64,000 nucleotides of DNA. Origin: Phycisphaera sp. (lineage in GTDB: Bacteria > Planctomycetota > Phycisphaerae > Phycisphaerales > Zrk34). Below the pieces are notes generated by a model that did not search any database, was not told the DNA's origin, and saw only the letters and a program-made list of their open reading frames with translations. The stretch spans positions 124,001-188,000 of the forward strand of contig WGMA01000005.1 in the NCBI GenBank assembly GCA_016125285.1, read 5' to 3'. Made by a program: the position numbers and the translations under genes. Below, one piece after another: positions 26,256 to 62,331 of this stretch (the first letter of the stretch is position 1; each line of letters starts with the position of its first letter).

Positions 26256-27851
26256 TCAACGCGCGATCGCGGCGGGCGCGTCGGGTTGGTTTTTCGCGGT
26301 CAGCAGGCGGAGCGTCACGCCGTCGACGTAGTGACCGTCGAACTCCGGCGCGACCGAGTCCGGGTGGACGTTTTCCACGGCGCGGATGCGGATGATCACG
26401 CAGTCGACGCCCGTCGGCAGACGCATCGAGGTCGACAGCGGCTGCCACGTCGCGGGGTCGGCGTCGGAAATCAGCACGGCGCCGCGGGCGTTGTCGTACA
26501 TGGCCTTGGTGGCGATATCGGCCTTGCGTAGGGCGAACAGCTGGATGCCGAACTCGGTGTCGGTCTGCGGGCCGCCGGCCACGCGGTTGAACTGCGCGGT
26601 GACCGTCGCGATCACGCGGCCGGTGTCGATCGCGTCACGCATGTCCGCGACGTCGATCACGCGGTACACCTCGCACGAGCTGTGCTCCGCGGAGGCGCTG
26701 CTCGACGTGGCGTCGAAGCGCAGCATCCGCCGTCCCTCGAACGGCACGACGTCGGCCGTGGCGTCGACCAGCGACGCGCGGTCGCCGTTCCACTGCGCAC
26801 CCGCCTTGGCCGAGCCGGACACGACGTAGCCGCCGCGCTCGAAACCGCCCTCGATCGTCGGCTCGCTCACCTTGAACATCGTCCGCAGCGTGTCGCTCGG
26901 CTGTATCGGCGCCGACGTGACCGCGGCCTTCGCATCGGCGACGCGCGCCGTCTGTCCCGCGGTGACCGCCGTGACGGTCGGGCGACCGGTCGACTTCGTG
27001 TCGACACGGCCCTCGTAGACGCTGACCTCCGTCGCGCCCGTTGCGTCGACCGTCACGCTGAAGTAGGTGCCGCGGTCGACCACGGTGGCGGTGGGCGTCT
27101 CAACGGCGAACCCGTGCGCCGCCTCGGGGACGTAAGCGAGCAGCCGGCCGCGTGTCAGACGCACGCGGTTGTCGTTGATGAGTTCGAAGTCGGCGGGTCC
27201 CATGAGCGACACGGTCGCGGTGGACCGCATGATCATGTCGGCGACGCCGGAGTTGATCCGGACGGGGCCGCGGTCGAGCATCGAGCCGGGGCCGAGCACC
27301 GTGTCGTTCGCGGCGTTGGCGTTGCTGAGGTCGCCGGCGTTGTCGGCGAAGGTCACGCCGCGTGTGTCGGTGAGCGTGGCGACGGGCTGACCGTCGGCGG
27401 CGCGGCTGGGGTCGTCGGTCGTCGACGGGCCGCGCGACAGCAGCGCTACGGCGAGCGCGGCGGCGAACAAGAAGACAGCGGCCGCGGCGTAGTGTGACCA
27501 GTGGGTCGTACGGCCGCGGCCGCTGAGGGCACGTTCGGTGGAGTGGCTGCCGATGGAGCCGACGACGGCGCGGTCGGTCGTGTCGACGCCGTCGGTGTGG
27601 TGGTCGTGGTCGTGGCGGGTCGTACCGCTCGGCGCCGAGGCGCTGACGCCCGCGTCCGTCGCGCTGAGCCAGCGGAGGTGCGCGCGGGTCGCGGTCAGCT
27701 CGAGGTAACGCCGCCGCGCCGCCGCGCTGGCCGACAGCGTGTCGCGCAGCTCGGCGGACTGCTCGTCGGTCAGCTCGCCGTCGAACAGCTCGGCGACGAG
27801 ATCGTCGAGCCGGGCGCGGCTGAAATCGGGTTGGCCCTGCGTGTCGCTCAC
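26256..27851 (-). CDS. Cassette A FecR-like transmembrane protein
   Basis: 531 residues from GTG 27851-27849, whose bases overlap the sigma stop (GTGA); GGAGGG lies within the end of the sigma gene. Residues 1-65 are an anti-sigma-type helical region (DDLVAELFDGELTDEQSAEL), followed by a His/Asp-rich linker, RALSGRGR, one membrane helix (121-138, YAAAAVFLFAAALAVALL), a FecR domain (about 195-310, with RLTRGRLLAYVPEAAHGFAV and VVDRGTYFSVTV), and a variable C-terminal beta-rich region that looks carbohydrate-binding-like. FecR proteins pass surface signals to their sigma factor; no TonB receptor is present here. Confidence 0.85.
   Translation of the reverse strand: MSDTQGQPDFSRARLDDLVAELFDGELTDEQSAELRDTLSASAAARRRYLELTATRAHLRWLSATDAGVSASAPSGTTRHDHDHHTDGVDTTDRAVVGSIGSHSTERALSGRGRTTHWSHYAAAAVFLFAAALAVALLSRGPSTTDDPSRAADGQPVATLTDTRGVTFADNAGDLSNANAANDTVLGPGSMLDRGPVRINSGVADMIMRSTATVSLMGPADFELINDNRVRLTRGRLLAYVPEAAHGFAVETPTATVVDRGTYFSVTVDATGATEVSVYEGRVDTKSTGRPTVTAVTAGQTARVADAKAAVTSAPIQPSDTLRTMFKVSEPTIEGGFERGGYVVSGSAKAGAQWNGDRASLVDATADVVPFEGRRMLRFDATSSSASAEHSSCEVYRVIDVADMRDAIDTGRVIATVTAQFNRVAGGPQTDTEFGIQLFALRKADIATKAMYDNARGAVLISDADPATWQPLSTSMRLPTGVDCVIIRIRAVENVHPDSVAPEFDGHYVDGVTLRLLTAKNQPDAPAAIAR
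27465..27533 (-). promoter_or_regulatory. Terminator-like hairpin inside FecR gene A
   Basis: Sense strand: CGTGCCC (27533-27527), one base, then a 16-bp stem made from CAGCGGCCGCGGCCGTA (27525-27509) and TACGCCGCGGCCGCTG (27491-27476) with one bulge, then TCTTCTTGTTC. It encodes RALSGRGR to the first residues of the membrane helix. Confidence 0.7.
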
Positions 27852-28429
27852 GACAGGCCCTCCATCGACAGCGACTGATCGACGCAGCGCTCCAGCGCGT
27901 CGTGGATCCGGCGGAGCCACTTGCGGACGGTCACCGTCGAGCGCTCGACCGACGCGGCCGTGTCGTTGAGCGTCGCGCCGGGGCGGTAGCGGTGCATGAC
28001 CAGGTCGCGGTCGTCGGCCGGCAGCTTGTTGACGCAGTCGGCCAAGGCGCGCGAGCGCGCCTCGACGTGGTCGGTCATCGCCTCGGCGTCCGCGGCCAGG
28101 CCGTCGAGCAGCTCGTCATTAAAGAGGTGTCGGTCGCGGCGCTGCGTCCGGCGGTATTCCATCACCTTGAAGCGCACGATCTTGAACGCCCACGCGGGGA
28201 AGTTCGCGTTGGGGTCGTCGGCGTTGAACTCGCCGAACTTCTGCCACATCACGCTCGTCGCCTCGGCCAGCACGTCCTCCGCCGCGGCGAGGTCTGGCAC
28301 GAGCGACAGCGTAAAGGCCATCAGCCGACGCTCGGTCGCCATGAACAACCGCACGAAGCGATCGGGCGCCGGCACCGGCGTAGGGACCGTATGCTCGTGC
28401 TGTGACATGTTTTGCGACGATTCGGTCAT
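27848..28429 (-). CDS. Cassette A ECF sigma factor (Rhodopirellula/Verrucomicrobium type)
   Basis: 193 residues; ATG at 28408 is a possible later start. Region 2: FMATERRLMAFTLSLVPDLA, then AAEDVLAEATSVMWQKFGEF and AWAFKIVRFKVMEYRRTQRR. Region 4: CVNKLPADDRDLVMHRYRPG and the helix-turn-helix LNDTAASVERSTVTVRKWLR. This matches TIGR02989-type ECF factors. The stop codon overlaps the FecR start. Gene order sigma, FecR, pilin is shared with the seven other cassettes, so this factor probably drives its own operon (inference). Confidence 0.9.
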   Translation of the reverse strand: MTESSQNMSQHEHTVPTPVPAPDRFVRLFMATERRLMAFTLSLVPDLAAAEDVLAEATSVMWQKFGEFNADDPNANFPAWAFKIVRFKVMEYRRTQRRDRHLFNDELLDGLAADAEAMTDHVEARSRALADCVNKLPADDRDLVMHRYRPGATLNDTAASVERSTVTVRKWLRRIHDALERCVDQSLSMEGLS

Positions 28430-28537: not shown

Positions 28538-29410
28538 TCACGGAGCCGACTGCTGGGCGACCCACGCGTCGTAGAGCTGCGGGAACGCCAGCTTCTTGGT
28601 GTCGATCGATTCGACCTGCTCGGTCAGCTCGACATGACCGTCGAAGAACAGCACGTCGCCGCCGCCGGCCAGGAGGTTCCTGTCGCGCGGCAGGTGGTAG
28701 GTCGCGATCGAATCGATGAACGAGGCGGGGTTGCCCATGTTCGTGCTCGCGCCGAGCCAGCTGTTGTTCAACGCGTAACCGGCCGTCGAGCCGTTGGCGA
28801 AGGGGTTCTCCTCGCTGATCAGCAGCTGCCGCTCCGGCGTCACGACGTTCGGGTCGTTGAACATGCGATCGATCTCGGGCTGCCCCTGCCAGCCGTGCCA
28901 GACGGTCTCGAGCATCGAGTACGAGTTGGACGGCCGCATCTTCGGGTCGCTGATGTAGCCGACCGACAGGCGCGCCGACGTCGGGCAGACGAACACGCGT
29001 TCGTCCTGCATGTAGGGCCACAGCCGGCCGCCGGGGTTCTCCTCGCCGGTGACCTCCGTGTACGGCGCGATGCGGCGGTTGCCGTTGGCGTCGGCGTGCC
29101 ACTGGTCCCAGCGGTCGTTGAAGTTGCCGTGCACGTCGACGTTGTGGCGGTCCGGCGCGTTGGTCGCCCAGTACGCCTCGGGCAGCGCTCGCGTGAATTC
29201 GCCCGCGTAGGCGGTCAGCGCGACGTACATCTGATGCTCGTTCGACTGGCAGACGACGATCTCGGCGCGCTCCACGGCGCCGCTGAACGTCGGGATGAGC
29301 AGCACCATCAGCAGGACGATGATCGACACGACGACGAGCATCTCGACGATCGTGAACCCGCGTGGCCGGGTGTGACTTGCGCTGCGGTTGATCAGGCGTG
29401 GCGTGTACAT
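28538..29410 (-). CDS. Cassette B pseudopilin
   Basis: 290 residues; ATG preceded by AAAGGGAG. Class III signal PRGFTIVEMLVVVSIIVLLM, cleavage expected after Gly. Middle part has RVFVCPTSARLSVGYISDPK; the C-terminal DG motif is GGDVLFFDGHVELTEQVESI. It starts 36 bases after the FecR-like gene of cassette B and ends 108 bases before sigma A, so each cassette appears to have its own promoter. Confidence 0.88.
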   Translation of the reverse strand: MYTPRLINRSASHTRPRGFTIVEMLVVVSIIVLLMVLLIPTFSGAVERAEIVVCQSNEHQMYVALTAYAGEFTRALPEAYWATNAPDRHNVDVHGNFNDRWDQWHADANGNRRIAPYTEVTGEENPGGRLWPYMQDERVFVCPTSARLSVGYISDPKMRPSNSYSMLETVWHGWQGQPEIDRMFNDPNVVTPERQLLISEENPFANGSTAGYALNNSWLGASTNMGNPASFIDSIATYHLPRDRNLLAGGGDVLFFDGHVELTEQVESIDTKKLAFPQLYDAWVAQQSAP

Positions 29411-29446: not shown

Positions 29447-31021
29447 TCAGCGCGTGTCCGCGGCGGGCGTGGCCTTGAGGTCGTACTCGTGCACGACGAT
29501 GTCGCCGAATCGGGCGTTGTAGCCGCCGCCGATGAACAGGCGGCTGTTGGTGTCGTCGAAGCCGTTGTTGGTCGCGCTCACCCACGGCGAGGTGAAGTCC
29601 GCGACGAACGGCCCTCCGTGGTAGTCGCGGTCGATGCTGAACGCGAAGCGCCCATTGACCGCGTCGTAGATCATCCGCAGGCGGTGCGTACCGGAGCCCG
29701 CCTGATCCGCCGAGCCGCTCAGCTCGCGCGACACGCCGCGCGTGTGCGTGCCGTCGAAGTCGCCGATGTTCAGCGACCGGTTCTCGCGGAAATCGTCCGG
29801 CCAGGCCACGGCGAACACGCTGGGGCCCTGCGGCTCACGCGACATGTCCTCGCCGGGCACGCACGTGCCGAAGCCGAAGAACGCCCCGCCGATGCCGCCG
29901 TGCGCGCCCACGTCGCCGACGGTCATCGTGACCTCCGCGACGAAGCTCCGGCGGAGCCAGTCCGTGCGCTGCGTCCGCAGGTAGCAACGCGTCGGATCGC
30001 CCAACGACGTGAAGCGAACATGCCCGTCGGCGTAATCGACCAGCGCGGGCGGGACCGCCTCCCAGCCCGCGGGCAGTCGGCCGGTGGCGAACGTGTCCGA
30101 CAGCGTGACCGGCGTGTCGGCCAGCGCCTCGCCGAACTCTTCGGGGCTGTCGAGGTTGAGCCGGGTCACGTTCCCTTCGACGTCGACGTGCAGCGCCTGC
30201 CGGGCTTCGAGCCGATACGTGTCGTCGCCACGCTCGACGCGGACCACGCCCTCGAGCACGCAAACACGCGTCTTGTCGGCGTCATCGACGTTCATGGCGA
30301 ACGCGGTGCCGAGGTCGACGACGCGCACGCCTTCGGGACCTTCGACCGCGAAGCCGTGCGCGCCCGACGGCACGTGCGCGGAGATCACGCCGCGGTGCAG
30401 GCGACCGCTGTTGTCGCCGTGCAGCTCGAACCGCGCCGGGCCGGTGACGTTGACGACCGCGCCGCTGGTGAACAGCAGCTGCGCCGAGCCCTTCGACAGC
30501 GTCAGCGTCCCGGCCCCAAGCGGGCTGCCGATCGACATGTCGGAGGCGGCGTCGGTCCAGGCGACGTCGCTGCTGGTGTTGACGACGGTCGCGACCGTCG
30601 GCCCCGAGGCCTCGCGGTGCGGCGCCCGCGGCCGGGCGAGGAACGACACGGCCAGCGCCGCGGCGATAAGAAAGGCAGCGGCCGCGGCGTAGCGGGCAAA
30701 ATGGCTACGCGCGCGACCGCTGTGGGCACGTCTGTCTGATCCGATGTCGTCCGACGGCGCGAGCTTCGCCACCGGGATCGGCTCGGCCTCGACGAGGTCC
30801 GCATCGTCTTCCAGCGGCGCCTCGGCCGTGTGCTCACGCAGGTCCAGATCGAGCTGGCTCTCCAGCGCGGCGCACCGGCGGAACACGCCGCGGGCCTTTT
30901 CGCTCGACGCCAGGTCGGCCTCGAGCGCCTGCACCTCGTCGTCCGTGGCCGTCCCGTCGAGGACACGCCAGATCGCCTCGAGCAGCGCGGCGTCGGTCAT
31001 GGGGTCGCGGTCGGGCGTCAT
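29447..31021 (-). CDS. Cassette B FecR-like protein with lectin-like C-terminal domain
   Basis: 524 residues from the ATG at 31021, which overlaps the sigma stop as ATGA. Order: helical anti-sigma-type region (1-65); the motif EAEPIPVAKLAPS (78-90), shared with cassettes C, D and F; RAHSGRARS; membrane helix (about 109-125, YAAAAAFLIAAALAVSFLA); FecR domain with RLHRGVISAHVPSGAHGFAV and RVVDLGTAFAMNVDD; then a C-terminal jellyroll of about 200 residues starting DTFATGRLPAGWEAV, similar in style to concanavalin-like domains. The 38 bases that encode the EAEPIP motif are identical to those of cassette C. Confidence 0.85.
   Translation of the reverse strand: MTPDRDPMTDAALLEAIWRVLDGTATDDEVQALEADLASSEKARGVFRRCAALESQLDLDLREHTAEAPLEDDADLVEAEPIPVAKLAPSDDIGSDRRAHSGRARSHFARYAAAAAFLIAAALAVSFLARPRAPHREASGPTVATVVNTSSDVAWTDAASDMSIGSPLGAGTLTLSKGSAQLLFTSGAVVNVTGPARFELHGDNSGRLHRGVISAHVPSGAHGFAVEGPEGVRVVDLGTAFAMNVDDADKTRVCVLEGVVRVERGDDTYRLEARQALHVDVEGNVTRLNLDSPEEFGEALADTPVTLSDTFATGRLPAGWEAVPPALVDYADGHVRFTSLGDPTRCYLRTQRTDWLRRSFVAEVTMTVGDVGAHGGIGGAFFGFGTCVPGEDMSREPQGPSVFAVAWPDDFRENRSLNIGDFDGTHTRGVSRELSGSADQAGSGTHRLRMIYDAVNGRFAFSIDRDYHGGPFVADFTSPWVSATNNGFDDTNSRLFIGGGYNARFGDIVVHEYDLKATPAADTR
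30665..30730 (-). promoter_or_regulatory. Terminator-like hairpin inside FecR gene B
   Basis: CGTGCCC (30730-30724), one base, stem CAGCGGTCGCGCGCGTAGC (30722-30704) with GCTACGCCGCGGCCGCTG (30693-30676), one bulge and one G-U pair, 10-base loop CATTTTGCCC, then CCTTTCTTATC. The tail uses TTT and CTT codons where TTC and CTC prevail elsewhere. Confidence 0.72.
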
Positions 31022-31563
31022 AGCTCGTAGCCCTCCCGCATCAGCCCCGCCATGATGCACCGCAGCAGCGCCGTCCGCGTGCGCTGCAACGCCTTGTACA
31101 ACGCGTTGGTGTTCATGCCGATCGTCCGCGCGACCTCGTCCGCGGTGACCCGCGCCGCGCCGTAGTACGACCGGACGATCTGCCGTTCGCGGTCCGGCAG
31201 CTTGTCGATGCAGCCGTCGAGATGACGCAGCTGCGCGGCGTGCAGGTCCTGCTCGCGTGACGACTCGTCGGCGATCAACTCCGTCAGCTCGTCGCTGAAC
31301 CGCAGGCGACACCGGGCCGACTCCCGGCGGTAGTTCATCGCGGTGTTGCGGGCGATCGACAACGCCCAGCCGACGAACGCGTCCCGCGACCGCAGCTCCG
31401 GGAACTGCCGCCACATGATCGCGCTGGCCCGCTGCAGCACCTCGTCGGCCTCCTCGCGGTTGAACACCAGCGAGCGCACAAACGCCCTAAGTGCATGCTG
31501 ATGACGCGTATACAGCGCCACGAACGCTTCACCGTCGGCCATGTTGTCCGGGGAGTCGCTCAT
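31018..31563 (-). CDS. Cassette B ECF sigma factor
   Basis: 181 residues from the ATG at 31563; a TTG four codons upstream is less likely. Region 2: VALYTRHQHALRAFVRSLVF, EEADEVLQRASAIMWRQFPE, GWALSIARNTAMNYRRESAR. Region 4: CIDKLPDRERQIVRSYYGAA and VTADEVARTIGMNTNALYKA. Same ECF type as A, D, E, F and H. A TAGAGA box and A-tract lie directly upstream (31566-31622). Confidence 0.9.
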   Translation of the reverse strand: MSDSPDNMADGEAFVALYTRHQHALRAFVRSLVFNREEADEVLQRASAIMWRQFPELRSRDAFVGWALSIARNTAMNYRRESARCRLRFSDELTELIADESSREQDLHAAQLRHLDGCIDKLPDRERQIVRSYYGAARVTADEVARTIGMNTNALYKALQRTRTALLRCIMAGLMREGYEL

Positions 31564-31565
31564 CG

Positions 31566-32410: not shown

Positions 32411-33853
32411 CTATTCCTCGCTGGTGATCGGCGTCGGCGTGACGATCCGCTCGAAGCGGATCAGGTCGAAGTTGATCTGATTGAATCCTCCGGGCGGGTC
32501 CACGAGCCGCAGCTGCAGCCGCTTGCCCGCGTCCTTCGGCGGACACGTGAACGTCAGTACGCGGTCGGTCATGATGCCCGCGCCCACGTCGGACAGGTCG
32601 CCCTGCACGCTCGCCAGCGCCTGACCCGAGTCCGCGTCGTAAAGGGCCAAGCCCCAGGCGACGCGCTCGATGTTGTCGGCGTACTCGCGACGCGCGCCGA
32701 CGCGGGCCGTGAGTCGGTAGGTCTCACCGGCGCGCGTGTACACGCCGAGGTCCTGATAAAGCGCGCTGACCACGCCCGCCGGATCGCTCGAGATCGGCTT
32801 GTTGACGTACCCCGCGAATCGTCCGTCGACGCCCGCGCGGAACCGATCGCCCTGTAACTCGCACCCCGCCCGGCTGCCCGCGATGGTGCTCTTCCAGCCC
32901 GTCGGCCACGACCGCGATGTCCTGTCCTGATCATCGTCCTCAAACGACGGATTGACCACCGTAACCGCGCGACGCACCTCGAGCGGCTCGCCGACCGACT
33001 CGGCGTTGACCACACAGCGGTCGCCCGCGACCAGGTCGAAGCTCCCCACGACCTGTCGCGAGCCGACCGCGCGTTCGATACGCACGCGGCCCTCGGTCAC
33101 CGCGACCGTCTGCCTGCCGCGCTCGTCGATGTCGACGCGGAACCGCGTGCCGAGGTCCACCACGCGCACGCCGTCCGGCAGATCGACCGCGTAGCCGACC
33201 GCCTCCTTCGGCACGTAGACCTCGAGGCGGCCGGCGTCGAGCCGGCCGGCGTTCGGCCCCGTCAGCGCGAAGCGGCACGGGCCATGCAGGCTCACCACCG
33301 CGCCACGCTTCATCAGCAGCTGCGCGTAGCCGCCGTCGAGCGCCAGGTCGCCGTTGGCCATCGCGTCGCCGACCGCCGGCTTGTCCGTCGACCACACCGC
33401 GTCGGCCGCGTCGATCAGCGTCGCCACCGCGTCGGCCTGCGCCACACCCATCCCGCCACCCGCCCGACCGGCACGATGGCCCAGCCACAGCGACACGGCG
33501 ACCGTCGCGATCAAGAAAAGAACGGCGGCCGCGGCGTAGCGATAAAAGCGGCTACGCACGCGACCGCCGCGGGCACGTTGAAGGGAAATCGGTTCATCCG
33601 CCGGCGCGAGCTTCGCCACCGGGATCGGCTCGGCCTCGATGATGTCGTCCGCGCCGGCGTCGCCCGCCGCGTCGTGCCGCATCATCCACGTCTGCGTCGC
33701 CACGCGGTTGAACAGCCGGCAGCGCGATTCGTCGCCGCGCATCGCCTCGGCCAATCGCTCGGCGTCGGCCTCGTCGCAGCGATCCTCCAGGTACGCCAGC
33801 GTCAGCGCGACGAAGTCGTCGTCCGTCATCGGGCTGTACGGCGTGTCAGGCAC
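32411..33853 (-). CDS. Cassette C FecR-like protein with CBM-like C-terminus
   Basis: 480 residues from GTG 33853-33851; the start overlaps the sigma stop by 8 bases (GTGCCTGA), an arrangement found also in cassette G. Anti-sigma-type N-terminus (FVALTLAYLEDRCDEADAER), EAEPIPVAKLAPA at 73-85, RARGGRVRS, membrane helix at about 106-123 (YAAAAVLFLIATVAVSLWL), FecR domain with RLDAGRLEVYVPKEAVGYAV and RVVDLGTRFRVDID. The C-terminal 170 residues begin VVNPSFEDDDQDRTSRSWPT, a pattern of carbohydrate-binding-type jellyrolls. Confidence 0.85.
   Translation of the reverse strand: MPDTPYSPMTDDDFVALTLAYLEDRCDEADAERLAEAMRGDESRCRLFNRVATQTWMMRHDAAGDAGADDIIEAEPIPVAKLAPADEPISLQRARGGRVRSRFYRYAAAAVLFLIATVAVSLWLGHRAGRAGGGMGVAQADAVATLIDAADAVWSTDKPAVGDAMANGDLALDGGYAQLLMKRGAVVSLHGPCRFALTGPNAGRLDAGRLEVYVPKEAVGYAVDLPDGVRVVDLGTRFRVDIDERGRQTVAVTEGRVRIERAVGSRQVVGSFDLVAGDRCVVNAESVGEPLEVRRAVTVVNPSFEDDDQDRTSRSWPTGWKSTIAGSRAGCELQGDRFRAGVDGRFAGYVNKPISSDPAGVVSALYQDLGVYTRAGETYRLTARVGARREYADNIERVAWGLALYDADSGQALASVQGDLSDVGAGIMTDRVLTFTCPPKDAGKRLQLRLVDPPGGFNQINFDLIRFERIVTPTPITSEE
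33509..33577 (-). promoter_or_regulatory. Terminator-like hairpin inside FecR gene C
   Basis: CGTGCCC (33577-33571), one base, stem CGGCGGTCGCGTGCGTAGC (33569-33551) with GCTACGCCGCGGCCGCCG (33540-33523), one bulge, loop CGCTTTTATC, then TTCTTTTCTTGATC. Tail codons GTT CTT TTC TTG. Confidence 0.72.
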
Positions 33854-38589: not shown

Positions 38590-39348
38590 TCACCACCAGC
38601 CCTTGATGCTGCCGGTCTTGACCGACGAGTGGCGGGTCAGCTCGTTCTGGTAGCGCCAGCGGACCGAGCCGTCGAGGTAGGCGGAGTTGACGCCCTGGCC
38701 GCCGAGTTCGTCGGGGTCGACGATCGTGCCGGAGAGCGTCATCGTCGAGCCGCGGTCGGTATGCGTCAGCGAGGTGACGTTGGGGATCACGGTGCCCTGC
38801 TCGACGATGTCGGACAGGAAGATCAGCGTCGACTTGTCGCCGAACGTCAGCGGCGACTGGTTCCACGGGTGGTCCGGGTCGTCGCCGTTCCACGGCAGCG
38901 GGAACTTCGTGCCCCGGCCGAACAGGTAGAAGTAGCCGAGGCGGTGGCCGATGTTCGCGTTGCGCTCCCAGTCGCGGCGGTTGGCGCAGTAGAACACGTC
39001 CATCTGCCGGGCGGTGACGAACTGCGTGTCGCTCGGGCCGGTGAACTTGAACGGCTTGAGGCCGACGCGGTCCTGGAGGTCGGCGAACAGGTTGTGGTTG
39101 ACCCACGTGACGTGGTCGGTGTGGGTGTCGTTACGCTGCGTGGCGGGGATGTGGCCGTTGTCGTCGGACGCCAGGCCCATCACGGCCACGTGCACGTTGT
39201 GCTGGTTCGCGGCGCACACGGCGCGGCGGGCGATCTCCCGGCCGCGCCCCAGCGACGGCAGCAGCATCGCCACCAGCAGCACGATGATCGACATGACCAC
39301 CAGCAGCTCAACGATCGTGAAGGCGGTACGGGCGTAGTGATGGCGCAT
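38590..39348 (-). CDS. Cassette D pseudopilin
   Basis: 252 residues from the ATG at 39348 (GGAG upstream). Class III signal starts at residue 9 (AFTIVELLVVMSIIVLLVAM); note Ala, not Gly, before Phe. Mid part MDVFYCANRRDWERNANIGH and LGYFYLFGRGTKFPLPWNGD, DG motif GVNSAYLDGSVRWRYQNELT, end TGSIKGWW. Nearly every one of these segments recurs in the cassette H pilin, so the two are close paralogs. Confidence 0.88.
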   Translation of the reverse strand: MRHHYARTAFTIVELLVVMSIIVLLVAMLLPSLGRGREIARRAVCAANQHNVHVAVMGLASDDNGHIPATQRNDTHTDHVTWVNHNLFADLQDRVGLKPFKFTGPSDTQFVTARQMDVFYCANRRDWERNANIGHRLGYFYLFGRGTKFPLPWNGDDPDHPWNQSPLTFGDKSTLIFLSDIVEQGTVIPNVTSLTHTDRGSTMTLSGTIVDPDELGGQGVNSAYLDGSVRWRYQNELTRHSSVKTGSIKGWW

Positions 39349-39395: not shown

Positions 39396-40871
39396 TCAGT
39401 TGCCGGGGTCGGCGTCGGTCTCGGCGTCGGGCATGGCGACGATCACACGGATCTGGTCGACCTTGTCGTTGACGACGCCGAAGTGCAGCCGCAGCGTGCG
39501 GCCGTCGCGTTCGAGCGTGACGGTGTCGGGGGTTTCCTTCTGCGAATCGCTCAGGCCTTCGAGGCCGTCGGGATGCGTCGTGTAGTCGACGCGCGGCGAG
39601 CCGAGCAGCGTGCCGCTGGCCTTCAGCTCGGCGTCGGCGGCGATCACGGCGAGGACCGGCGTGTCGAACCGCACGGTCGCGTCGAGGAACGTCAGCCCGC
39701 GCGGATCGTGCGCCGGATCGAAGCGGATCAGGTAGCTGCGGACCTTGACGCCCGATCGGACACGCAGCGGGCGCGTCGTGTCGTAACGGTCGCTCGTGCC
39801 CGGCTTGATCAGCGTCGCGGCGATCGGCTTGCGGAGCGCCACGCCGTCGGATTCGAGCACGATGGTCATGAAGCTGTCGCTTGGCGGCAGCGGCTGCGGC
39901 GCGGCGATCGGCGTGCCGGCGTCGCGTGCGGCCCGGCCGTCGATCATCAGCGACGCCGGCTCGCTCGACGCGACGCCCATGCCCGCGTGCTGCGGCGCGA
40001 CGAAGCGGTGCGCGTCGGCCGTCACGTCGCTCACGTTGCCCGTCGCGCTGTCGATGGCGATCGAACGCCCCGCCGTCAGCGAGACCGCCGAAGCGTCCGA
40101 CGTGCCGTACGGCCGCACCTTCACGTGGCCCTCGAACACATCCACGCGCGTCTCGCCCATGTCGGTCACATCGACGCCGAACCGCGTGCCGAGGTCGATC
40201 ACCTCGTGCGTCGGCGTCTCGACGGTGAACCCGTGCGCCTTGGTCGGCACGACCGCGACGATCCGTCCGTGCGTCAGCCGGCACCGGTTGGGCCCCAGCA
40301 TCTGCACGTCCGCCGGGCCCAGCAGCGTGACCCGCGCCGTCGACTCCATCACGAGCTCCGCGGCGCCGGACTGCAGCTGCAGGCGACCGGGACGCACCGA
40401 CGAACCCAGGTCCGTCAGCGTGTCGGCGTCGACCCACTTCGCGTCGACCACGTCGGTGATCGTCGCGACCGGCGGGCCGTCGTTGGCCACGCCCGCGGGG
40501 TCACGGTGATCGGTCACGGCGCCGCGCTGCATCAGCACGACCACGAGACCGGCAACAATTAAAAAGACGGCGGCCGTCGCGTAACGGAGCACATTGCTAC
40601 GCGGACGGCCGCCGAGGGCACGTCGATCGGTGGACGGAGCGAGGCGCGCGACGGGGATCGTCTCGGCCTCGATCGCATTGGCCTCGTCGGCCAACTCAAA
40701 GTGCATGTCGAGGTACTGCCGGTAGTAACGCCGGGCCGCGTCGCTCGACTCCAGCAGCGTCTGCAGCGCGGCGAACCGCTCGTCGGTGATCGACTCGTCG
40801 ACCACCTCCGCCATCAGCGCCTCGAGCTCGGCGCGGGTCGCTTCGTCGAGTTGTGCACGCGTGTCGCTCAC
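39396..40871 (-). CDS. Cassette D FecR-like transmembrane protein
   Basis: 491 residues from GTG 40871-40869, overlapping the sigma stop (GTGA). Anti-sigma-type N-terminus (DESITDERFAALQTLLESSD), EAETIPVARLAPS at 68-80, RALGGRPRS, membrane helix at about 97-114 (YATAAVFLIVAGLVVVLM), FecR domain with RLTHGRIVAVVPTKAHGFTV and VIDLGTRFGVDVTD. The C-terminal half (SYLIRFDPAHDPRGLTFLDA onward) is shared with cassette H only and has no family name I can give. The bases after the internal hairpin give codons TTT TTA ATT GTT, rare in this genome. Confidence 0.85.
   Translation of the reverse strand: MSDTRAQLDEATRAELEALMAEVVDESITDERFAALQTLLESSDAARRYYRQYLDMHFELADEANAIEAETIPVARLAPSTDRRALGGRPRSNVLRYATAAVFLIVAGLVVVLMQRGAVTDHRDPAGVANDGPPVATITDVVDAKWVDADTLTDLGSSVRPGRLQLQSGAAELVMESTARVTLLGPADVQMLGPNRCRLTHGRIVAVVPTKAHGFTVETPTHEVIDLGTRFGVDVTDMGETRVDVFEGHVKVRPYGTSDASAVSLTAGRSIAIDSATGNVSDVTADAHRFVAPQHAGMGVASSEPASLMIDGRAARDAGTPIAAPQPLPPSDSFMTIVLESDGVALRKPIAATLIKPGTSDRYDTTRPLRVRSGVKVRSYLIRFDPAHDPRGLTFLDATVRFDTPVLAVIAADAELKASGTLLGSPRVDYTTHPDGLEGLSDSQKETPDTVTLERDGRTLRLHFGVVNDKVDQIRVIVAMPDAETDADPGN
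40554..40622 (-). promoter_or_regulatory. Terminator-like hairpin inside FecR gene D, with a genuine T-run
   Basis: CGTGCCC (40622-40616), one base, stem CGGCGGCCGTCCGCGTAGC (40614-40596) with GTTACGCGACGGCCGCCG (40585-40568), one bulge, then TCTTTTTAATTGTT. A C-G pair of the other stems is here a T-A pair on both arms. Confidence 0.78.
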
Positions 40872-41413
40872 GCCGCGCCCTCCACGTCGGAGGTCTCTGC
40901 CAGTGCCTGGTTTACGCAATCCATCAACGCGGCGCGGATCCGCTCGAGCTGCTTGTACAGCCGCTTGGGCCGCTCGCCGAGTTGCTCCGCCAGGGCCGCG
41001 ACTGTTTCGGTCGTCGCGTAGCGGCGACGCACGAGCTGGCGCTGCGTGTCGGGCAGCTTGTCGAGGCAGTCGCGCATCGCACGCCGGCGGGACTCGGTCT
41101 CGTCCTGCTCGGCGGCGCGCTCGTCGGCGAGCCGCTCGATCAGGCCCTCGTTGAGCACCAGCCGCCCGCGCCGCGCCCGGTCACGCTGCTTGAGCGCCTC
41201 GAGCCGGGCGAACGCTAAAGCCCACGGCACAAAGGGTTGAGCCGCGTCGTACTCGCCGAACTTGCGCCACAGCGCCACCGACGTATTCTGAAACGCCTCG
41301 TCGGTCGCCTCGCGGTCGAGCAGCAGCGAGAACAGAAACCGCCGCACGTCCTGCTCGTGCTTGGCGAACAGGCGGAGGAAGGTCTCGGTCTGATGTGGCG
41401 TGTCGTGATCCAT
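40868..41413 (-). CDS. Cassette D ECF sigma factor
   Basis: 181 residues from the ATG at 41413. Region 2: LRLFAKHEQDVRRFLFSLLL, ATDEAFQNTSVALWRKFGEY, PWALAFARLEALKQRDRARR. Region 4: CLDKLPDTQRQLVRRRYATT and VAALAEQLGERPKRLYKQLE. A TATATA sequence and an A/T tract (about 41421-41478) lie upstream. Confidence 0.9.
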   Translation of the reverse strand: MDHDTPHQTETFLRLFAKHEQDVRRFLFSLLLDREATDEAFQNTSVALWRKFGEYDAAQPFVPWALAFARLEALKQRDRARRGRLVLNEGLIERLADERAAEQDETESRRRAMRDCLDKLPDTQRQLVRRRYATTETVAALAEQLGERPKRLYKQLERIRAALMDCVNQALAETSDVEGAA

Positions 41414-41861
41414 GGGACTTGTATATACATTCCCACGATCCCCCGCCGATTCCCCCGGGCCGCGCAAAATTTTTTCGGCGCGCACAGGATGACACGCGGG
41501 ATTTGCCGCGGCGACGCGTCCGGCGAATTCCACCCCGCCGCGATCGCCGCCGCGCCACGGCGAATCAAGGACTTACGGCGACCCGATGCGGTAACCCCAC
41601 GATCAATACGTGACTTACGTCATTTTAACGGGCTCACGGACGTCCATTTCGGGGGTTGGAACGGTACCGAAAACGGTGCGTGACGGGGCAAAAGGGGGCG
41701 CGAACGGGGCGCGGAAGGGCCGCCGGCGGGCGCGAAGGGGCGACGGAAAATCGGTGGCGCGCCAGGTCGTGCGCACGGCGGGACACGCGTCGAGTCGTCG
41801 CTCGCTGTCGCGGCCGGGCGCGTCGGCGGCGTTTGCGCGTCGGCGGCGGCGGGTGCGCGGA
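41414..41861. other. 448-base gap between cassettes D and E
   Basis: No gene supported. Near sigma D it holds TATATAC (41420-41428) and an AAAATTTTTT tract (41466-41475) within a GCGC-flanked stretch, probably the sigma D promoter. Bases 41640-41850 are strongly purine-rich on the plus strand (runs such as GGGGCAAAAGGGGGCG). The octamer GACTTACG occurs twice (about 41570 and 41612). Confidence 0.5.
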
Positions 41862-45944: not shown

Positions 45945-46655
45945 TTACCACCAGTGCCAGGGCCAGTGGTCGGCCTGCGTGCGCAGCTCCATCTCGTCGA
46001 ACGTGCGCCAGCCGACGTGTCCGTCGACGAACAGCAGGTTGCCGCCGGCGGGCTGGCGCGTCGCGTCGTCGAGGAGCTTGCGGTCGTCGAGGTGCGGCGA
46101 GCGGTGCACCCCGGCCCAGCCGCCCTTGACGTAGGTGAAGTTCATCGCGTTCGTCGAGAGGTTCGAGTCGGTGGACATCGGCGTGACCGCGGCGCCGCTG
46201 ACCTTGCTGAGGCTCACGAGCGTGTGGTTCGATCCGGTCAGCGGCGGGAACCCGCGGTTGGGCTGCTCGATGAGCGAGTAGTAGCCGGTGACGATGTAAT
46301 CGGTGGCGTACTCCCACAGCGACTCGTCGTTCTGGTAGATGCCCGACGGGCAGTAGAACACGTCGCGTGTCGCACCGCTGTCGACCATGAACCCGCGGAC
46401 GTCGCGGCTCATGTCCCACCACCAGTTGCCGGCGTACTGCGTGCTGGAGGGGAACGCCGTGGCGTTGTCCGCCGCGTAGTTCAGCGCCGCGAAGCCGATC
46501 TGGTGCTCGTTGGACGCGCAGATCGCGCGGCGGCCGGTCTCCTGCGCCTTCTCGTACGCCGGCATCGCCAGCACCGTCAGCAGGATGAGGATCGACACGA
46601 CGACGAGCAGCTCGACGATCGTGAACGCGCGGTTGTTGCGGCTGCTGGGGCTCAT
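45945..46655 (-). CDS. Cassette F first pseudopilin
   Basis: 236 residues; ATG overlaps the FecR stop (ATGA). Class III signal RAFTIVELLVVVSILILLTV with Ala before Phe; ATRDVFYCPSGIYQNDESLW; DG motif GGNLLFVDGHVGWRTFDEME, close to that of pilin A; end DHWPWHWW. Standard pilin of the cassette, followed by the LamG-type pilin. Confidence 0.88.
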   Translation of the reverse strand: MSPSSRNNRAFTIVELLVVVSILILLTVLAMPAYEKAQETGRRAICASNEHQIGFAALNYAADNATAFPSSTQYAGNWWWDMSRDVRGFMVDSGATRDVFYCPSGIYQNDESLWEYATDYIVTGYYSLIEQPNRGFPPLTGSNHTLVSLSKVSGAAVTPMSTDSNLSTNAMNFTYVKGGWAGVHRSPHLDDRKLLDDATRQPAGGNLLFVDGHVGWRTFDEMELRTQADHWPWHWW

Positions 46656-48202
46656 GGCTGCCCGACCTTTCCGAGGGAGTAGTGCATCTTGATCTGCTGT
46701 TCAGACCACGCGCGCCGCACGACGATGAACTGATCGATCACGCCGTTGAGCGACGGATCGACGTCGTAGAAGCTCTTGCCGACGAGGCCGGTGACCGGCG
46801 CCACGTCGCGCGGCGTGACGGTGAGCCTCGTGTTCTGCGCCACCGGCTTGCCGTCGAGGTAGAGCGTCGCGGTCGAACCCGCGCCGTCGGCGTTGCGGCG
46901 GATCGTCACGGCCAGGTGCACCCAGCGCTCGACCGGCATCGGCGACGGCGCGGTGACCATCTGCTCGTCGGGCTTGCCGCTGTTGGTGATCGCGAAGCGC
47001 GGCCGGCCGTCGTCGGCGCCGAGCGTGAGGAACAGGTAGCGGTTGACGTCGTGGCCGAAGTCGAACACGCGCTGCCACGCCCCGCCGCCACGCCAGTACA
47101 CCCACGCCGTGACGGTCAGCTCGTCGCTGTCCAGGCCGTCGACCGGCACACGCAGGTACGACGTGCCGCCCAGGTCGAGCGCGGGTCGACCCCAGCGATC
47201 GTTCGCCGCGCGCGACGCGTCGCCGAGCACCACCGCGTGCCCGCCCGCGGCCGCGAGATTGTTCAGCGTGGTCGACCCGGTCGCGCCCCGCATCGCGTAG
47301 CACTGCAGCGTGTCGGCCGACGCGGCGATGTGCCGCAGGTACGCGTCGTCGGACGTCTCGCCGCGCTCCGCCACGATGCCGCCCGCCTTGCGGAGCGTCA
47401 CGGACACCGGCGCGTCGAAGCGGCGGTCCGAACCGTTCTGCGACACGGACACCACGCCCTCGGTCACGCGCAGGTGCACGTCGCCGGACGCGTCGGCGCC
47501 GAGGATGAACCGCGTGCCGAGATCGGTGACCCGGCCGGCGTAGGTTTCGACCGCGAAGCCGTGCGCAGCGGGGGGAACGTTGAAGGACGCCCAGCCGGTG
47601 CGCAGGGCGCAGGCGTTGTCGCTGGTGAGCCGCAGCTCCGTGGGGCCGAACAGCGTCGACTGCGCGCCGCGTCCGTGCACGAGTTCCGCGACGCCGCCCT
47701 CGAGCGTCAGCGGCGCCGTCCCCAGCGTGTCGCCCACCGCCAGCTCGCCGGCCGGCGCGGCCCACTGCGCGTTCTCCGCGCCGGTGAGGGTCGCGAGCGC
47801 CGCGGCGCTGGGCGGCGCGACGGGGCCGGGCCCGGTCGGCGATGTCGTCCGCGTCGCCAGCACCGCCACGAGGCTCGCGACGATGAAGAGAACGGCGGCC
47901 GCGGCGTAGCGATACAGCGGTGTACGCACGCGGCCGCCGAGGGCACGTTGATCGGTCGAGGGAGCCAGCTTCGCCATCGGGATCGGCTCGGCCTCGATCG
48001 TGTTGGCTTCGTCGGCGATGCCGTGCAGGTCCGCACACAACGCCGCGTGTTCGATGTAACGCCGACGCAGCTTCGCGTCGTCGCGGATCAGCGTCTGCAG
48101 CTCGGCGAACTGCTCGTCGGTGATCGTCCCGTCGGCCAAGGCGTCGAGCAGCGTGTCGAACGCGGCGTGCGGGTTCGGCGTGGGGAAGGCGCGGTCGTTC
48201 AT
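46652..48202 (-). CDS. Cassette F FecR-like protein with LamG domain
   Basis: 516 residues; ATG overlaps the sigma stop (ATGA). Anti-sigma-type N-terminus (DGTITDEQFAELQTLIRDDA), EAEPIPMAKLAPS at 70-82, RALGGRVRT, membrane helix at about 99-116 (YAAAAVLFIVASLVAVLA), FecR domain with ALRTGWASFNVPPAAHGFAV and RVTDLGTRFILGAD, and LamG domain from about 345 to 510 (LTVTAWVYWRGGGAWQRVFD ... NGVIDQFIVVRRAWSEQQIK). The LamG is nearly the same as that on the second pilin of the cassette. Confidence 0.88.
   Translation of the reverse strand: MNDRAFPTPNPHAAFDTLLDALADGTITDEQFAELQTLIRDDAKLRRRYIEHAALCADLHGIADEANTIEAEPIPMAKLAPSTDQRALGGRVRTPLYRYAAAAVLFIVASLVAVLATRTTSPTGPGPVAPPSAAALATLTGAENAQWAAPAGELAVGDTLGTAPLTLEGGVAELVHGRGAQSTLFGPTELRLTSDNACALRTGWASFNVPPAAHGFAVETYAGRVTDLGTRFILGADASGDVHLRVTEGVVSVSQNGSDRRFDAPVSVTLRKAGGIVAERGETSDDAYLRHIAASADTLQCYAMRGATGSTTLNNLAAAGGHAVVLGDASRAANDRWGRPALDLGGTSYLRVPVDGLDSDELTVTAWVYWRGGGAWQRVFDFGHDVNRYLFLTLGADDGRPRFAITNSGKPDEQMVTAPSPMPVERWVHLAVTIRRNADGAGSTATLYLDGKPVAQNTRLTVTPRDVAPVTGLVGKSFYDVDPSLNGVIDQFIVVRRAWSEQQIKMHYSLGKVGQP
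47881..47947 (-). promoter_or_regulatory. Terminator-like hairpin inside FecR gene F
   Basis: CGTGCCC (47947-47941), one base, stem CGGCGGCCGCGTGCGTA (47939-47923) with TACGCCGCGGCCGCCG (47908-47893), one bulge, 14-base loop, then TTCTCTTCATCG. Confidence 0.7.
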
Positions 48203-48756
48203 CCGTACACCTCCTCGCCGGGCATCTGCTTGCGGACGCAGTCCAGCAGCGCCCTGCGGAGCCGCGACAGCGCCTTGTACGCCGCGTGGGTCGACCGCGC
48301 CGCGAGCTGCGCCGCGGCCGCGACCGAGCCGTCGTGCTCGTAGCGACGCATCAGGAACCGCCGCTCGTCTTCGGGCAGCTTGTCGAGGCACGACTCCAGC
48401 GCGGCGCGCCGCTCGTCGAGCCCGTCGCGCATCGCCGCGGCGTCGGTCGCCACGGACTCCAGCACGTCGGAATCGAACACCAGGCGCGACCGCGCGTGGC
48501 TCCGCCGGTGGTGCATCACCTCGTAACGGATCACCCGGCAGGCCCACGCGAAAAAGTCCGAGCCCGGCTCGAAGCCGTCGAATTTCTCCCACATCACCCG
48601 CGTCGCGTCCTGCAGCACGTCCTCGGCGTCGTCGCGGTTGGGGACCAGCGTGTACGTGAATCCGAACAGCCGCCGCTGATGCTTCATCAGCAACGCCAGC
48701 AGGTTACGCCGCCCCGCGTCGTTCGCATCGTCGTGTTGGAGGGGTTGATCGCTCAT
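48199..48756 (-). CDS. Cassette F ECF sigma factor
   Basis: 185 residues. Region 2: LLALLMKHQRRLFGFTYTLV, DAEDVLQDATRVMWEKFDGF, AWACRVIRYEVMHHRRSHAR. Region 4: CLDKLPEDERRFLMRRYEHD and VAAAAQLAARSTHAAYKALS. Preceded by a 105-base gap after the sulfatase gene on the same strand. Confidence 0.9.
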   Translation of the reverse strand: MSDQPLQHDDANDAGRRNLLALLMKHQRRLFGFTYTLVPNRDDAEDVLQDATRVMWEKFDGFEPGSDFFAWACRVIRYEVMHHRRSHARSRLVFDSDVLESVATDAAAMRDGLDERRAALESCLDKLPEDERRFLMRRYEHDGSVAAAAQLAARSTHAAYKALSRLRRALLDCVRKQMPGEEVYG

Positions 48757-59977: not shown

Positions 59978-60772
59978 TCACCACCAGCCCTTGATGCCGC
60001 CGGTCTTCGTGGACGAGTGACACACGAGCGCGCCTTGGCTGCGCCAGCGCACCGAGCCGTCGAGGTACGTCGAGTTGACGCCCTCGCCGCCCAGTTGGCC
60101 GGGGTCGTCGACGGCGCCGGCGATCGTCATCGACGGGCCGTTGCTCGCGTGCGCCAGCGACGTGACGTTCGGCACGACGGTGCCCTGCTCGACGATGTCG
60201 CTGAGGAACAGCAGCGTCGGATCGTCGTGGAGCATACGCGGCGACTTCGTCCAGGGGCGGTCGGGGTCGTCGCCCGACCACGGCAGGGGCAGCTTGCCGC
60301 CGCGCCCGAACAGGTAGAAGAATCCGAGGCGGTGGCCGAAGCTCGTGTTGCGTTCCCAGTCGCGCCGGTTGGCGCAGTAGAAGATGTCCATCTGGCGGTC
60401 GGCGATGAACTCCGTGTCGTTCGGTCCGGTGAACTTGAACGGCTCGAGCCCGGCGTACTCCTGGAACCGCTCGAACAGGTCGTGGTTGACCCAGGTGACA
60501 TGGTCCTGGTTGTCGGTGTCGCGCTGCGTGTCGGGCAGCTGACTGAACCGGTCGGAGGCGATCGAGAGCACGGTCATGTGCGTCTGGTGCTGACGCGAGG
60601 CGCAGACGGCGCGACGTCCGATCTCACGCGAGCGAGCCATCGACGGCAGCACGATCGACAGCAGCAGCACGAGGATCGACATCACCACGAGCAGCTCGAC
60701 GATCGTGAAGCCGCGTGCGTCCCGGCGTGTCGTGCGTCGCGGTCGGCGCGAAGGGATAGCGTGATGGCCCAT
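59978..60772 (-). CDS. Cassette H pseudopilin
   Basis: 264 residues. Class III signal RGFTIVELLVVMSILVLLLS. MDIFYCANRRDWERNTSFGH, LGFFYLFGRGGKLPLPWSGD, DG motif GVNSTYLDGSVRWRSQGALV and end TGGIKGWW show it to be a close paralog of pilin D along its whole length. Starts 65 bases after the FecR gene. Confidence 0.88.
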   Translation of the reverse strand: MGHHAIPSRRPRRTTRRDARGFTIVELLVVMSILVLLLSIVLPSMARSREIGRRAVCASRQHQTHMTVLSIASDRFSQLPDTQRDTDNQDHVTWVNHDLFERFQEYAGLEPFKFTGPNDTEFIADRQMDIFYCANRRDWERNTSFGHRLGFFYLFGRGGKLPLPWSGDDPDRPWTKSPRMLHDDPTLLFLSDIVEQGTVVPNVTSLAHASNGPSMTIAGAVDDPGQLGGEGVNSTYLDGSVRWRSQGALVCHSSTKTGGIKGWW

Positions 60773-60837: not shown

Positions 60838-62331
60838 TTACTTGGAGACGACCAAGACGCGCACCTGGTCGATGGCGCCCGTGGCGGTCAGCTGGAGGAA
60901 CAGTTCCTTCCGGTCGGCGCTGATGGTCAGCGAATCGCTGAATCCGCCGTCGAAGCCACGCCCGCCGTTCGGGGTGGCGTCGTAGATCATGTTGGGCAGG
61001 CCGAGCAGTTCGTCGCTGGCCTGGAGGTGCTCGTCGGAGGCGATGACGCCGAGGATCGGGCGGTCGAACCGCACGGACCCGGCGAGGCTGACGCTCTTGT
61101 CGTTGCCGGGCGTGCCGACGGGGTCGAAGTGCAGCAGGAACACGTCGACCTTCTTGCCGGGGGCGATGACGAAGTTGCCGCTGTCCGACGTGGCCCAGAG
61201 GCCGGGCCGGCGCGGGAACGTCACGGTGAGCGGGTCGACGAGCTTGACGCCCTGCCGCTCGGGGATCAGCGCGATGCGTGCGTTGTGCTCGAAGCGGCCA
61301 CGCGCCAGCGACGGCGGGGCGTCGATCGAGTGCACCGCGCCGCGGACCCGCACCACGCCGTCCGGCAGCGGCGCGGTGATGTGACCGTCGTGCTCGAAGC
61401 GAGCGGGACGGAGCGAGACGACCTGCCCGCCGGTCGGCGCCGTCGGGCCGAACATGCGTGCCTGGCCCTTGGTCAGACGCTGCGCCTCGGACACGTCGCC
61501 GTCGGCGCTGCCGACCTCGACGATCCCCTGGAACACGTGCACCTCGGTGCGGTCATTGCCGTCGACCTCGACGCCGAATTCGGTGCCCAGGTCGGTGACC
61601 ATCGCGGAGGGGGTGTGAACGGTGAAGCCGATGGCCCACTCCGGCACGTACACGGCGATGCGTCCGCGGAGCAGGCGACAGGCGTTGTCGCCGATCATCT
61701 CCAGCTTCGTGTCGCCGAGCATCGTGACGATCGAGCCGCGACCGAGCACCAGCTGCGCCGACCCGCGACGCAGATGCAGCGCCCCGGGCTCAAGCGACGT
61801 GCCGGGCTGAAGCATGTCGGCCGAGGCCTCGTCGGCCCACTCGGCGTTGGTCACGTCGACGACGGTCGCGACGGTCGTCGGCCGGACCATCGCCGGTGCA
61901 ACCTCCGCGAGCTCGTCACCACCGTCGTTGTGGCCGCTTCTGGACAGCGCCATCACCGCCACCACGAGGGAGGCGACGACGACGATCGCCGCGGCGATGC
62001 GGGTGAAGTATGCGAAATATGACAGGGCGGGGGCGGACCCGGAGCTGTGGTCCGCCCCGCCTGTCAGGGCACGCGAAAGGGAATACGTCTCGGGCTGCTC
62101 GGCGTCACACGCCATCGGCAGGCCCATCTCCGCGGTGGCGTTCCACTGCAGGTCGGCGTGCAACGCCATGTACCGCAGGTAGTGCCGCCGCGCCTCGGCG
62201 TCGTCGCGGATCAGCTCCGCCAGACGCTCGTGATCGGCCGACGTCGCCGTGCCGTCGCAGTAGCGACCGAGCAGCGCCGTCAGTTCGTCGGCGTGCGCGT
62301 CGTCGAGATGTTCGTCACGCTCGACGCTCAC
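60838..62331 (-). CDS. Cassette H FecR-like transmembrane protein
   Basis: 497 residues from GTG 62331-62329 (GTGA overlap with the sigma stop). Anti-sigma-type N-terminus (LLGRYCDGTATSADHERLAE), RALTGGAD, membrane helix at about 105-125 (IAAAIVVVASLVVAVMAL), FecR domain with RLLRGRIAVYVPEWAIGFTV and MVTDLGTEFGVEVD. The C-terminal part (FLLHFDPVGTPGNDKSVSLA, DRPILGVIASDEHLQASDEL, AIDQVRVLVVSK) matches cassette D. So FecR and pilin of D and H were duplicated together. Confidence 0.85.
   Translation of the reverse strand: MSVERDEHLDDAHADELTALLGRYCDGTATSADHERLAELIRDDAEARRHYLRYMALHADLQWNATAEMGLPMACDAEQPETYSLSRALTGGADHSSGSAPALSYFAYFTRIAAAIVVVASLVVAVMALSRSGHNDGGDELAEVAPAMVRPTTVATVVDVTNAEWADEASADMLQPGTSLEPGALHLRRGSAQLVLGRGSIVTMLGDTKLEMIGDNACRLLRGRIAVYVPEWAIGFTVHTPSAMVTDLGTEFGVEVDGNDRTEVHVFQGIVEVGSADGDVSEAQRLTKGQARMFGPTAPTGGQVVSLRPARFEHDGHITAPLPDGVVRVRGAVHSIDAPPSLARGRFEHNARIALIPERQGVKLVDPLTVTFPRRPGLWATSDSGNFVIAPGKKVDVFLLHFDPVGTPGNDKSVSLAGSVRFDRPILGVIASDEHLQASDELLGLPNMIYDATPNGGRGFDGGFSDSLTISADRKELFLQLTATGAIDQVRVLVVSK
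62011..62072 (-). promoter_or_regulatory. Terminator-like hairpin inside FecR gene H, different stem sequence
   Basis: CGTGCCC (62072-62066) directly followed by stem TGACAGGCGGGGCGGACC (62065-62048) with GGTCCGCCCCCGCCCTGTCA (62038-62019), 18 bp with two single bulges, 9-base loop, then TATTTCGC. The stem has no sequence in common with A-D and F. Confidence 0.72.

Follow-up and report, generated by a model that had tools for sequence, protein, structure and literature searches.

Introduction

The closest precedent found in print for the element described here is brfA of B. subtilis, where a Rho-independent terminator within the coding region gives rise to non-stop mRNA, as examined by deletion and synonymous disruption; arfA of E. 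coli is likewise made from non-stop mRNA (PMC6881298). Here, we report on a hairpin that resembles an intrinsic (Rho-independent) terminator and recurs inside FecR-like anti-sigma genes of Phycisphaera sp., in a stretch of 64,000 nucleotides (nt) of contig WGMA01000005.1 (positions 124,001 to 188,000 of the forward strand), hereafter called the window.

Several further observations from E. coli frame this element. Premature 3' ends have been found within open reading frames, some of them with intrinsic-terminator scores (PMC7815308). Loss of elongation factor P (EF-P) has been examined for intragenic terminators, lowering the longer RNA of rsxC 1.8-fold and having no in vivo effect for narY (PMC5021804). 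With respect to the protein partner, N-terminal pieces of FecR such as 1-59 to 1-116 suffice for induction (PMC9249621).

The element in the window is best interpreted, with a probability that we put at roughly 0.6, as an intrinsic terminator lying in the frame of 20 anti-sigma genes and acting as a translation-sensitive attenuator between the gene of an extracytoplasmic function (ECF) sigma factor and those of its anti-sigma factor and a pilin-like protein.

Results

A CGTGCCC-headed hairpin recurs inside FecR-like genes

The window belongs to a draft genome of 6.09 Mb (G000) and carries eight FecR-like genes, A to H, all on its minus strand (Table 1). Reading and folding of the sequence established the same arrangement within the frames of A, B, C, D, and F, in which about one base separates the head CGTGCCC from a stem with bulges and up to 18 pairs, followed by a pyrimidine- or T-rich tail. 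H shares the head, followed by a stem of about 18 pairs of unrelated sequence and a weaker tail, TATTTCGCATAC. An earlier note on this DNA had located a shared hairpin at these six places and had called the stem of H wholly different. Both statements are borne out, and the observation is stronger than first stated. The head of H ends one base past the limit assigned to it there. The note had also listed a stem of other sequence in G (52301-52346, minus strand). This stem exists, and only 9 of 1000 synonymous recodings reach its stability, but it has neither the CGTGCCC head nor a T tail (GGGTTGATCC) and must be counted as a different element. In E (42695-44296), the membrane helix is similar and the element is missing.

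The common form of the element encodes the peptide RA[RLH]GGR..R....RYAAAAVLLI. The head is read as CGT GCC C, the 5' arm lies in Gly and Arg codons, the 3' arm in the Ala codons that open the membrane helix, and the tail in Val, Leu, Ile, and Phe codons. H encodes a different peptide, and its membrane helix is located further downstream.

Throughout the draft genome, 20 of 47 FecR-like genes contain the element. This gene set comprises 42 members recovered by family search, together with B, C, and three genes recognized by pattern or model. Nineteen of the elements were detected by a covariance model built from 17 copies; H was identified by eye and is not among the 36 matches of the model. 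At E <= 1.2e-5, the model points to 20 places, namely 19 FecR genes, all at one site, and a single copy outside FecR, which stands behind a gene. A known RNA family was rejected, as Rfam gave no match at the gathering score for positions 26000-63500 of the window.

Stems and tails compared with synonymous recodings

For every stem, 1000 synonymous recodings were generated according to the codon frequencies of this FecR family. Seventeen of the 20 stems were matched by at most 46 of these (exceptions: L008, L035, and L069), and 19 were stabler than the mean. Folding energies range from -32.5 to -39.6 kcal/mol in 18 copies, with L008 at -24.1 and L069 at -29.9.

Together, the 12-base tails of the 20 genes hold 139 T, compared to 89.9 expected from the same amino acids (standard deviation 1.87; maximum of 2000 draws, 98), an excess of about 26 standard deviations. 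Seventeen genes are significant individually (p < 0.05), while A, F, and H are not. The 36 bases beyond the tails exceed expectation comparatively little (132 T, about 121 expected), and no unusual 12-base window was found in the membrane helices of 26 element-free FecR paralogs (smallest p 0.094). Elsewhere in these genes, the codons in question are scarce: GTT makes up 2% of Val codons, CTT 2%, TTG 3%, and TTA <0.5% of Leu codons, ATT 2% of Ile codons, and TTT 8% of Phe codons. The tails (H excluded) use GTT 13 times and GTA once, CTT, TTG, or TTA 28 times and CTA never, and ATT three times and ATA never. GTA, CTA, and ATA, which are about as rare, thus turn up a single time between them, so that the tail codons are T-rich and not just rare. 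The head is likewise conspicuous, as it reads CGT GCC in 19 of 20 genes although CGT accounts for 13% of Arg codons elsewhere.

A combined, d'Aubenton-type terminator score is above zero in 15 of 20 copies and was matched by 0 of 300 recodings in 17 (exceptions: L008, B, and L025). At the sequence level, these comparisons show that synonymous codon choice preserves stem and U-tract to a degree that the protein does not require.

Paired changes between the arms

Seventeen copies could be aligned to a structure of 18 pairs, with H, L008, and L069 excluded. Standard pairs are formed in 93.0% of the cells, and the structure outscores slid versions of itself. Changes on both sides occur at 5 pairs and in 8 cells, compared to means of 1.4 and 1.6 in shuffled alignments, and 1 and 0 of 500 shuffles, respectively, were as high; the number of further pair types was not unusual among these 17 copies (113 of 500 shuffles). 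The most telling changes are seen in A and B, where G-C is replaced by A-U through a silent change in the 3' arm (GCC to GCT) that faces an amino-acid replacement encoded in the 5' arm. D also has paired changes, whereas C and F, to which the earlier note had also ascribed paired changes, depart from the consensus mainly on one side. Four unpaired cells at one pair (D, L025, L034, and L044) reflect a bulge that has apparently moved, with pairing resuming one base on. Since the copies share one genome and are related, we consider the covariation supporting, but not decisive.

Terminator scans and the head outside FecR genes

A terminator scan of 464 kb returned 106 candidates, many of which are plainly chance folds in genes; by raw energy, C, A, and D rank 2nd, 3rd, and 5th. 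With preset tail limits, the scan called A, C, and D in the window and 14 of 17 elements around the FecR loci examined. Intrinsic terminators seem to be in use in this genome. Strong, ordinary-looking examples at 38524-38553 and 17328-17367 (both minus strand) are a sign that this GC-rich genome employs the mechanism.

The order of CGTGCCC, stem, and T-rich tail, with other stems, is found at five places outside FecR (Table 1). Three of these follow genes, at distances of 18 nt, 20 nt, and 201 nt, while the other two have no clear context. Judged by their sequences, we take the three genes to be pilin-like (following the FecR gene L015; 18 nt), a small twin-arginine-type gene (20 nt), and DnaK-like (201 nt). 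Strong hairpins directly abut CGTGCCC at 5 of 41 non-nested matches outside FecR; two permuted heptamers gave 1 of 56 and 0 of 17. These counts apply to a line of -24 kcal/mol drawn after seeing the data; at the -14 of the script, they are 8, 5, and 0, so that a lineage-specific head is suggested, not proven. When combined with five T in a row, the head pattern has 28 matches in G000 and 8 for the reversed pattern. In eight same-family relatives, the numbers are 102 and 97 for the control, with G001 (23 versus 11) and G005 (19 versus 7) above their controls; these matches were judged by eye, unfolded, and include one abutting case, in G006.

Taken together, the T-rich tails made mostly of otherwise almost unused codons, the scores, and the same layout behind genes elsewhere provide good support, at the sequence level, for interpreting the element as a terminator.

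Position of the element and its probable relation to translation

The hairpin is located about 77-106 codons into the anti-sigma gene, at the start of the membrane helix, and begins 230-317 nt (median 258.5) after the sigma stop codon in the 16 of 20 genes with a placeable junction. The earlier note had proposed an attenuator between sigma and anti-sigma/pilin; the terminator character of the hairpin is supported by sequence, but the hairpin sits inside the anti-sigma gene, not before it. In 15 of 20 element genes, the FecR start overlaps the sigma stop (ATGA or GTGA), an arrangement that fits control by translation and does not demonstrate it. The element lies in frame, ahead of the stop codon of its own frame, and a transfer-messenger RNA (tmRNA) gene is present in the genome.

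In E. coli, a terminator within the first 100 bp of a frame remained largely efficient, and those further along were repressed by the trailing ribosome in a manner that depended on ribosome dynamics (PMC4824070). Given this effect of ribosomes and the distance into the frame, the element is best read as sensitive to FecR translation. RNA polymerase that is not closely trailed by a ribosome on the anti-sigma message would stop at the element, and the resulting RNA would comprise an intact sigma frame plus the anti-sigma N-terminus without a stop codon. Polymerase that is trailed by a ribosome, following reinitiation at the ATGA or GTGA overlap, would read on into the membrane anti-sigma and pilin genes. 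The element would thereby set the ratio of sigma to anti-sigma and pilin and tie this ratio to translation, with the CGTGCCC head as a constant part of this terminator subclass.

Alternatively, the hairpin could be a strong, unregulated terminator, that is, a fixed attenuator that holds sigma above anti-sigma and pilin without a role for translation. The same stems, tails, and scores speak for such a terminator, and it is in line with the lack of an antiterminator partner (see Discussion). However, ribosomes repress in-frame terminators, and a site 230-320 nt into a frame that overlaps the sigma stop would hardly be indifferent to translation, which makes this version rather unlikely. Improbable, in our view, is a translational brake, in which the hairpin and rare codons slow the ribosome for insertion of the membrane helix and transcription is uninvolved. 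The element does stand just before this helix and its tail codons are rare, but they are T-rich and not merely rare, several of the 26 element-free paralogs have a similar RYAAAA helix, the helix of H is further downstream, and the layout of head, stem, and T recurs behind other genes.

Distribution and origin

Outside G000, weaker candidates were rejected. Two weak model matches in relatives (L088 and L089) are not located in FecR and resemble ordinary terminators. Among 58 FecR genes of G001, G004, and G006, tested out of 69 listed for seven other genomes with matches, six in-frame candidates with a hairpin plus T were considered; none scores above 0, and they were matched by 7 to 198 of 200 recodings. 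A pattern scan of named genomes proved too loose, as it returned at least 113 stretches, mostly from unrelated GC-rich bacteria; 80 of these and 5 viral ones were scored with the model and reached 35.7 bits at best, compared to 62-87 for 18 copies of the genome itself.

In a FecR-core tree of 40 own genes and 47 from relatives, with many forks unresolved, the presence label needs 9 changes, at least 3 of which are forced by well supported branches. The near twins L008, with a decayed element (G000:C21:35352), and L013, without one (C12:95913), share 78-97% identity across some 480 nt that start where the element ends, and 44-62% ahead of it; therefore, at least these paralogs recombined there. 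The mosaic joint of the two genes suggests domain shuffling between sigma-binding and sensor parts. The copies resemble each other, while their upstream flanks mostly do not.

This pattern could be taken for a lineage-specific mobile palindrome, similar to repetitive extragenic palindromic (REP) sequences, or for a gene-conversion tract among FecR paralogs, with the terminator look as a by-product. Its absence from 399 other genomes of the order (in a coarse search) and from the 58 FecR genes of three same-family genomes, the similar copies within dissimilar flanks, the label changes on the tree, and the break between L008 and L013 would all suit such an origin. Dispersal into unrelated places is not seen, since 19 of the 20 model matches at E <= 1.2e-5 are FecR genes at one site and the only other copy stands behind a gene. 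Moreover, the FecR copies are in frame at one place, the stem of H is unrelated, and recombination leaves the T-tract codons and the compensating silent changes unexplained, so that we give this origin little credence. The element thus appears to be young, to have spread among paralogs, and to be maintained by selection at synonymous positions.

Finally, it is very improbable that protein constraint alone, acting through the mutually complementary Arg/Gly and Ala codons of a GC-rich genome (GGCGGCCGC and GCGGCCGCC), produced the element: the mean energy of the null recodings is already at about -23 to -31 kcal/mol, but synonymous recoding of stems, tails, and combined score rejects this origin, as 17 of 20 stems are stabler, the tails are T-rich by 26 standard deviations while the 26 element-free paralogs have no such excess, CGT dominates the heads, and H encodes another peptide. 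The earlier note had held protein similarity alone to be insufficient for the pairing in H and G.

Genes around the elements

A pilin-like N-terminal motif is located shortly 3' of each of the eight FecR-like genes. The NCBIfam prepilin cut-off was applied to four such genes; those after B and H score above it, and those after A and D do not. Pfam places ECF sigma genes before A, D, F, G, and H, and the one before H belongs to TIGR02989, a Rhodopirellula/Verrucomicrobium family. Two genes of the window carry PSCyt2/PSD1 domains (DUF1549/DUF1553), in keeping with a planctomycete source. LamG or HpiC1-like domains are fused to several FecR proteins (e.g. 46652-48592, 42695-44296, and 32411-33853), as if the sensor part had been swapped between cassettes.

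The linker 5' of the element contains a 12-residue motif, EAE.IPVAKLAP, in 8 of 20 element genes, compared to 1 of 27 others. It stands ahead of elements B (30730), C (33577), D (40622), F (47947), L022, L041, L056, and L069, and also occurs in the element-free L033. It is possibly a protein motif of one anti-sigma subgroup, or a translational pause site.

Table 1. Positions of the elements, neighbouring genes, and related hairpins. Unless a contig of G000 is named, positions refer to the window; stem values are the number of 1000 synonymous recodings matching the stem, and score values refer to 300 recodings.
Feature	Position	Strand	Head	Remarks
Element A	27462..27533	-	27527-27533	inside FecR A; tail TCTTCTTGTTC; stem 2/1000; tail T p 0.21; score -2.9, matched by 0/300
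Element B	30659..30730	-	30724-30730	inside FecR B; A-U for G-C in stem; tail CCTTTCTTATC; stem 0/1000; combined score -24.1, matched by 44/300
Element C	33506..33577	-	33571-33577	inside FecR C; tail TTCTTTTCTTG; stem 27/1000; score 22.1, matched by 0/300
Element D	40551..40622	-	40616-40622	inside FecR D; bulge shifted in stem; tail TCTTTTTAATT; stem 2/1000; tail T 8 vs 5.2 expected
Element F	47876..47947	-	47941-47947	inside FecR F; tail TTCTCTTCATC; stem 16/1000; tail T p 0.17
Element H	62002..62073	-	62067-62073	inside FecR H; unrelated stem; weak tail TATTTCGCATAC; stem 2/1000; tail T p 0.14
FecR A open frame	26256..27920	-		Pfam FecR
FecR B open frame	29447..31414	-		FecR just under Pfam cut-off; likely true start overlaps sigma stop
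FecR C	32411..33853	-		FecR just under cut-off; HpiC1-like
FecR D	39396..40919	-		
FecR F	46652..48592	-		FecR under cut-off in one search, over it in another; LamG
FecR H	60838..62478	-		
ECF sigma gene before FecR A	27848..28429	-		Pfam
ECF sigma gene before FecR D	40868..41533	-		Pfam
ECF sigma gene before FecR F	48199..48756	-		Pfam
ECF sigma gene before FecR H	62328..62936	-		Pfam; TIGR02989
Pilin-like gene after FecR B	28538..29410	-		prepilin N-terminal domain above cut-off
Pilin-like gene after FecR D	38590..39348	-		motif; family matches under cut-offs
Pilin-like gene after FecR H	59978..60772	-		prepilin N-terminal domain above cut-off
CGTGCCC-headed hairpin outside FecR	G000:C15:32588-32645			stem similar to that of C57
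CGTGCCC-headed hairpin outside FecR	G000:C57:32221-32274			stem similar to that of C15
CGTGCCC-headed hairpin outside FecR	G000:C84:27543-27601			
CGTGCCC-headed hairpin outside FecR	G000:C17:44381-44439			
CGTGCCC-headed hairpin outside FecR	G000:C81:48847-48890			

Discussion

A translation-sensitive terminator inside the anti-sigma genes would account for the features described above, and several observations weigh against it. Judged by the E. coli measurements, efficient translation of the gene would mostly silence a site located 230-320 nt into it. The overlap of start and stop codons is shared by at least 11 FecR genes that lack the element and is therefore not special to it. A pairing partner through which the head could act in an antiterminator was rejected, since none is consistent within 450 nt upstream (14 of 20 genes lack GGGYRYG and none has an exact GGGCACG), a result that counts only against the two-hairpin type of attenuator. 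The tails contain interruptions (TTCTTTTGATC), and those of A, B, F, H, and L025 are weak; A, B, H, L008, and L025 have negative d'Aubenton-type scores. B, F, and H remained below the preset limits of the terminator scan, and a scan for terminators without bulges found no excess in 26000-45500 and caught only part of the element of D. Because all copies are related members of a single genome, the counts of paired changes are inflated. L008 is a decayed copy whose stem is no better than its synonymous recodings, and 27 of 47 FecR-like genes do without the element. Lastly, its FecR form was not found in 60 relatives, 293 other genomes of the phylum, or 399 others of the order, in overlapping sets of which the larger were searched coarsely (above 40 genomes, about 13-17 candidates were scored per genome, and weak ones can be lost).

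The genome contains dozens of FecR-like genes, many of them in cassettes of ECF sigma factor, FecR, and pilin. If true, a terminator written into the synonymous sites of anti-sigma genes would offer a simple, repeated way to set sigma/anti-sigma ratios and to tie them to translation. Present, absent, and decayed copies constitute a natural set for asking about the coupling of transcription and translation in such bacteria. The tails also illustrate how an RNA signal can dominate the local choice of codons within a gene family.

With regard to known systems, open-licence literature in PubMed Central (PMC) yielded no description of such an element in FecR/ECF operons, of the head, or of a terminator family in anti-sigma genes. 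By its sequence features, the element would be a member of the intrinsic terminators and would work like an intragenic attenuator. As in brfA, the putative terminator precedes the stop codon of its own frame. brfA is a gene of 71 codons with the terminator near its end and feedback through trans-translation (PMC6881298), whereas the element described here lies within roughly the first third of an anti-sigma gene, at a central point of a sigma/FecR/pilin cassette, and is found in 20 paralogs of one genome. The ORF-internal ends of E. coli concern individual genes and were obtained by RNA mapping (PMC7815308), in contrast to a repeated, sequence-conserved element recognized from its sequence. 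The terminators in rsxC and narY are likewise intrinsic and intragenic; the text consulted on them describes neither selection at synonymous positions nor a sigma/anti-sigma context (PMC5021804).

The protein partners also invite comparison with FecI/FecR, which similarly combine an ECF sigma factor with a FecR-type membrane regulator. In E. coli, the N-terminal piece arises by proteolysis, and the available sections describe no terminator in fecR (PMC9249621); moreover, the sigma factor before H is of the TIGR02989 type. The terminated message would nevertheless encode a piece of roughly the inducing size. It is conceivable, although doubtful, that the element is an RNA-level counterpart of this proteolysis, in which takeover at the ATGA or GTGA overlap would switch 20 paralogous systems between 'sigma plus a free N-terminal piece' and 'sigma plus membrane-tethered anti-sigma and pilin', CGTGCCC being the site for a factor that the terminators behind the DnaK-like and pilin-like genes would also use.

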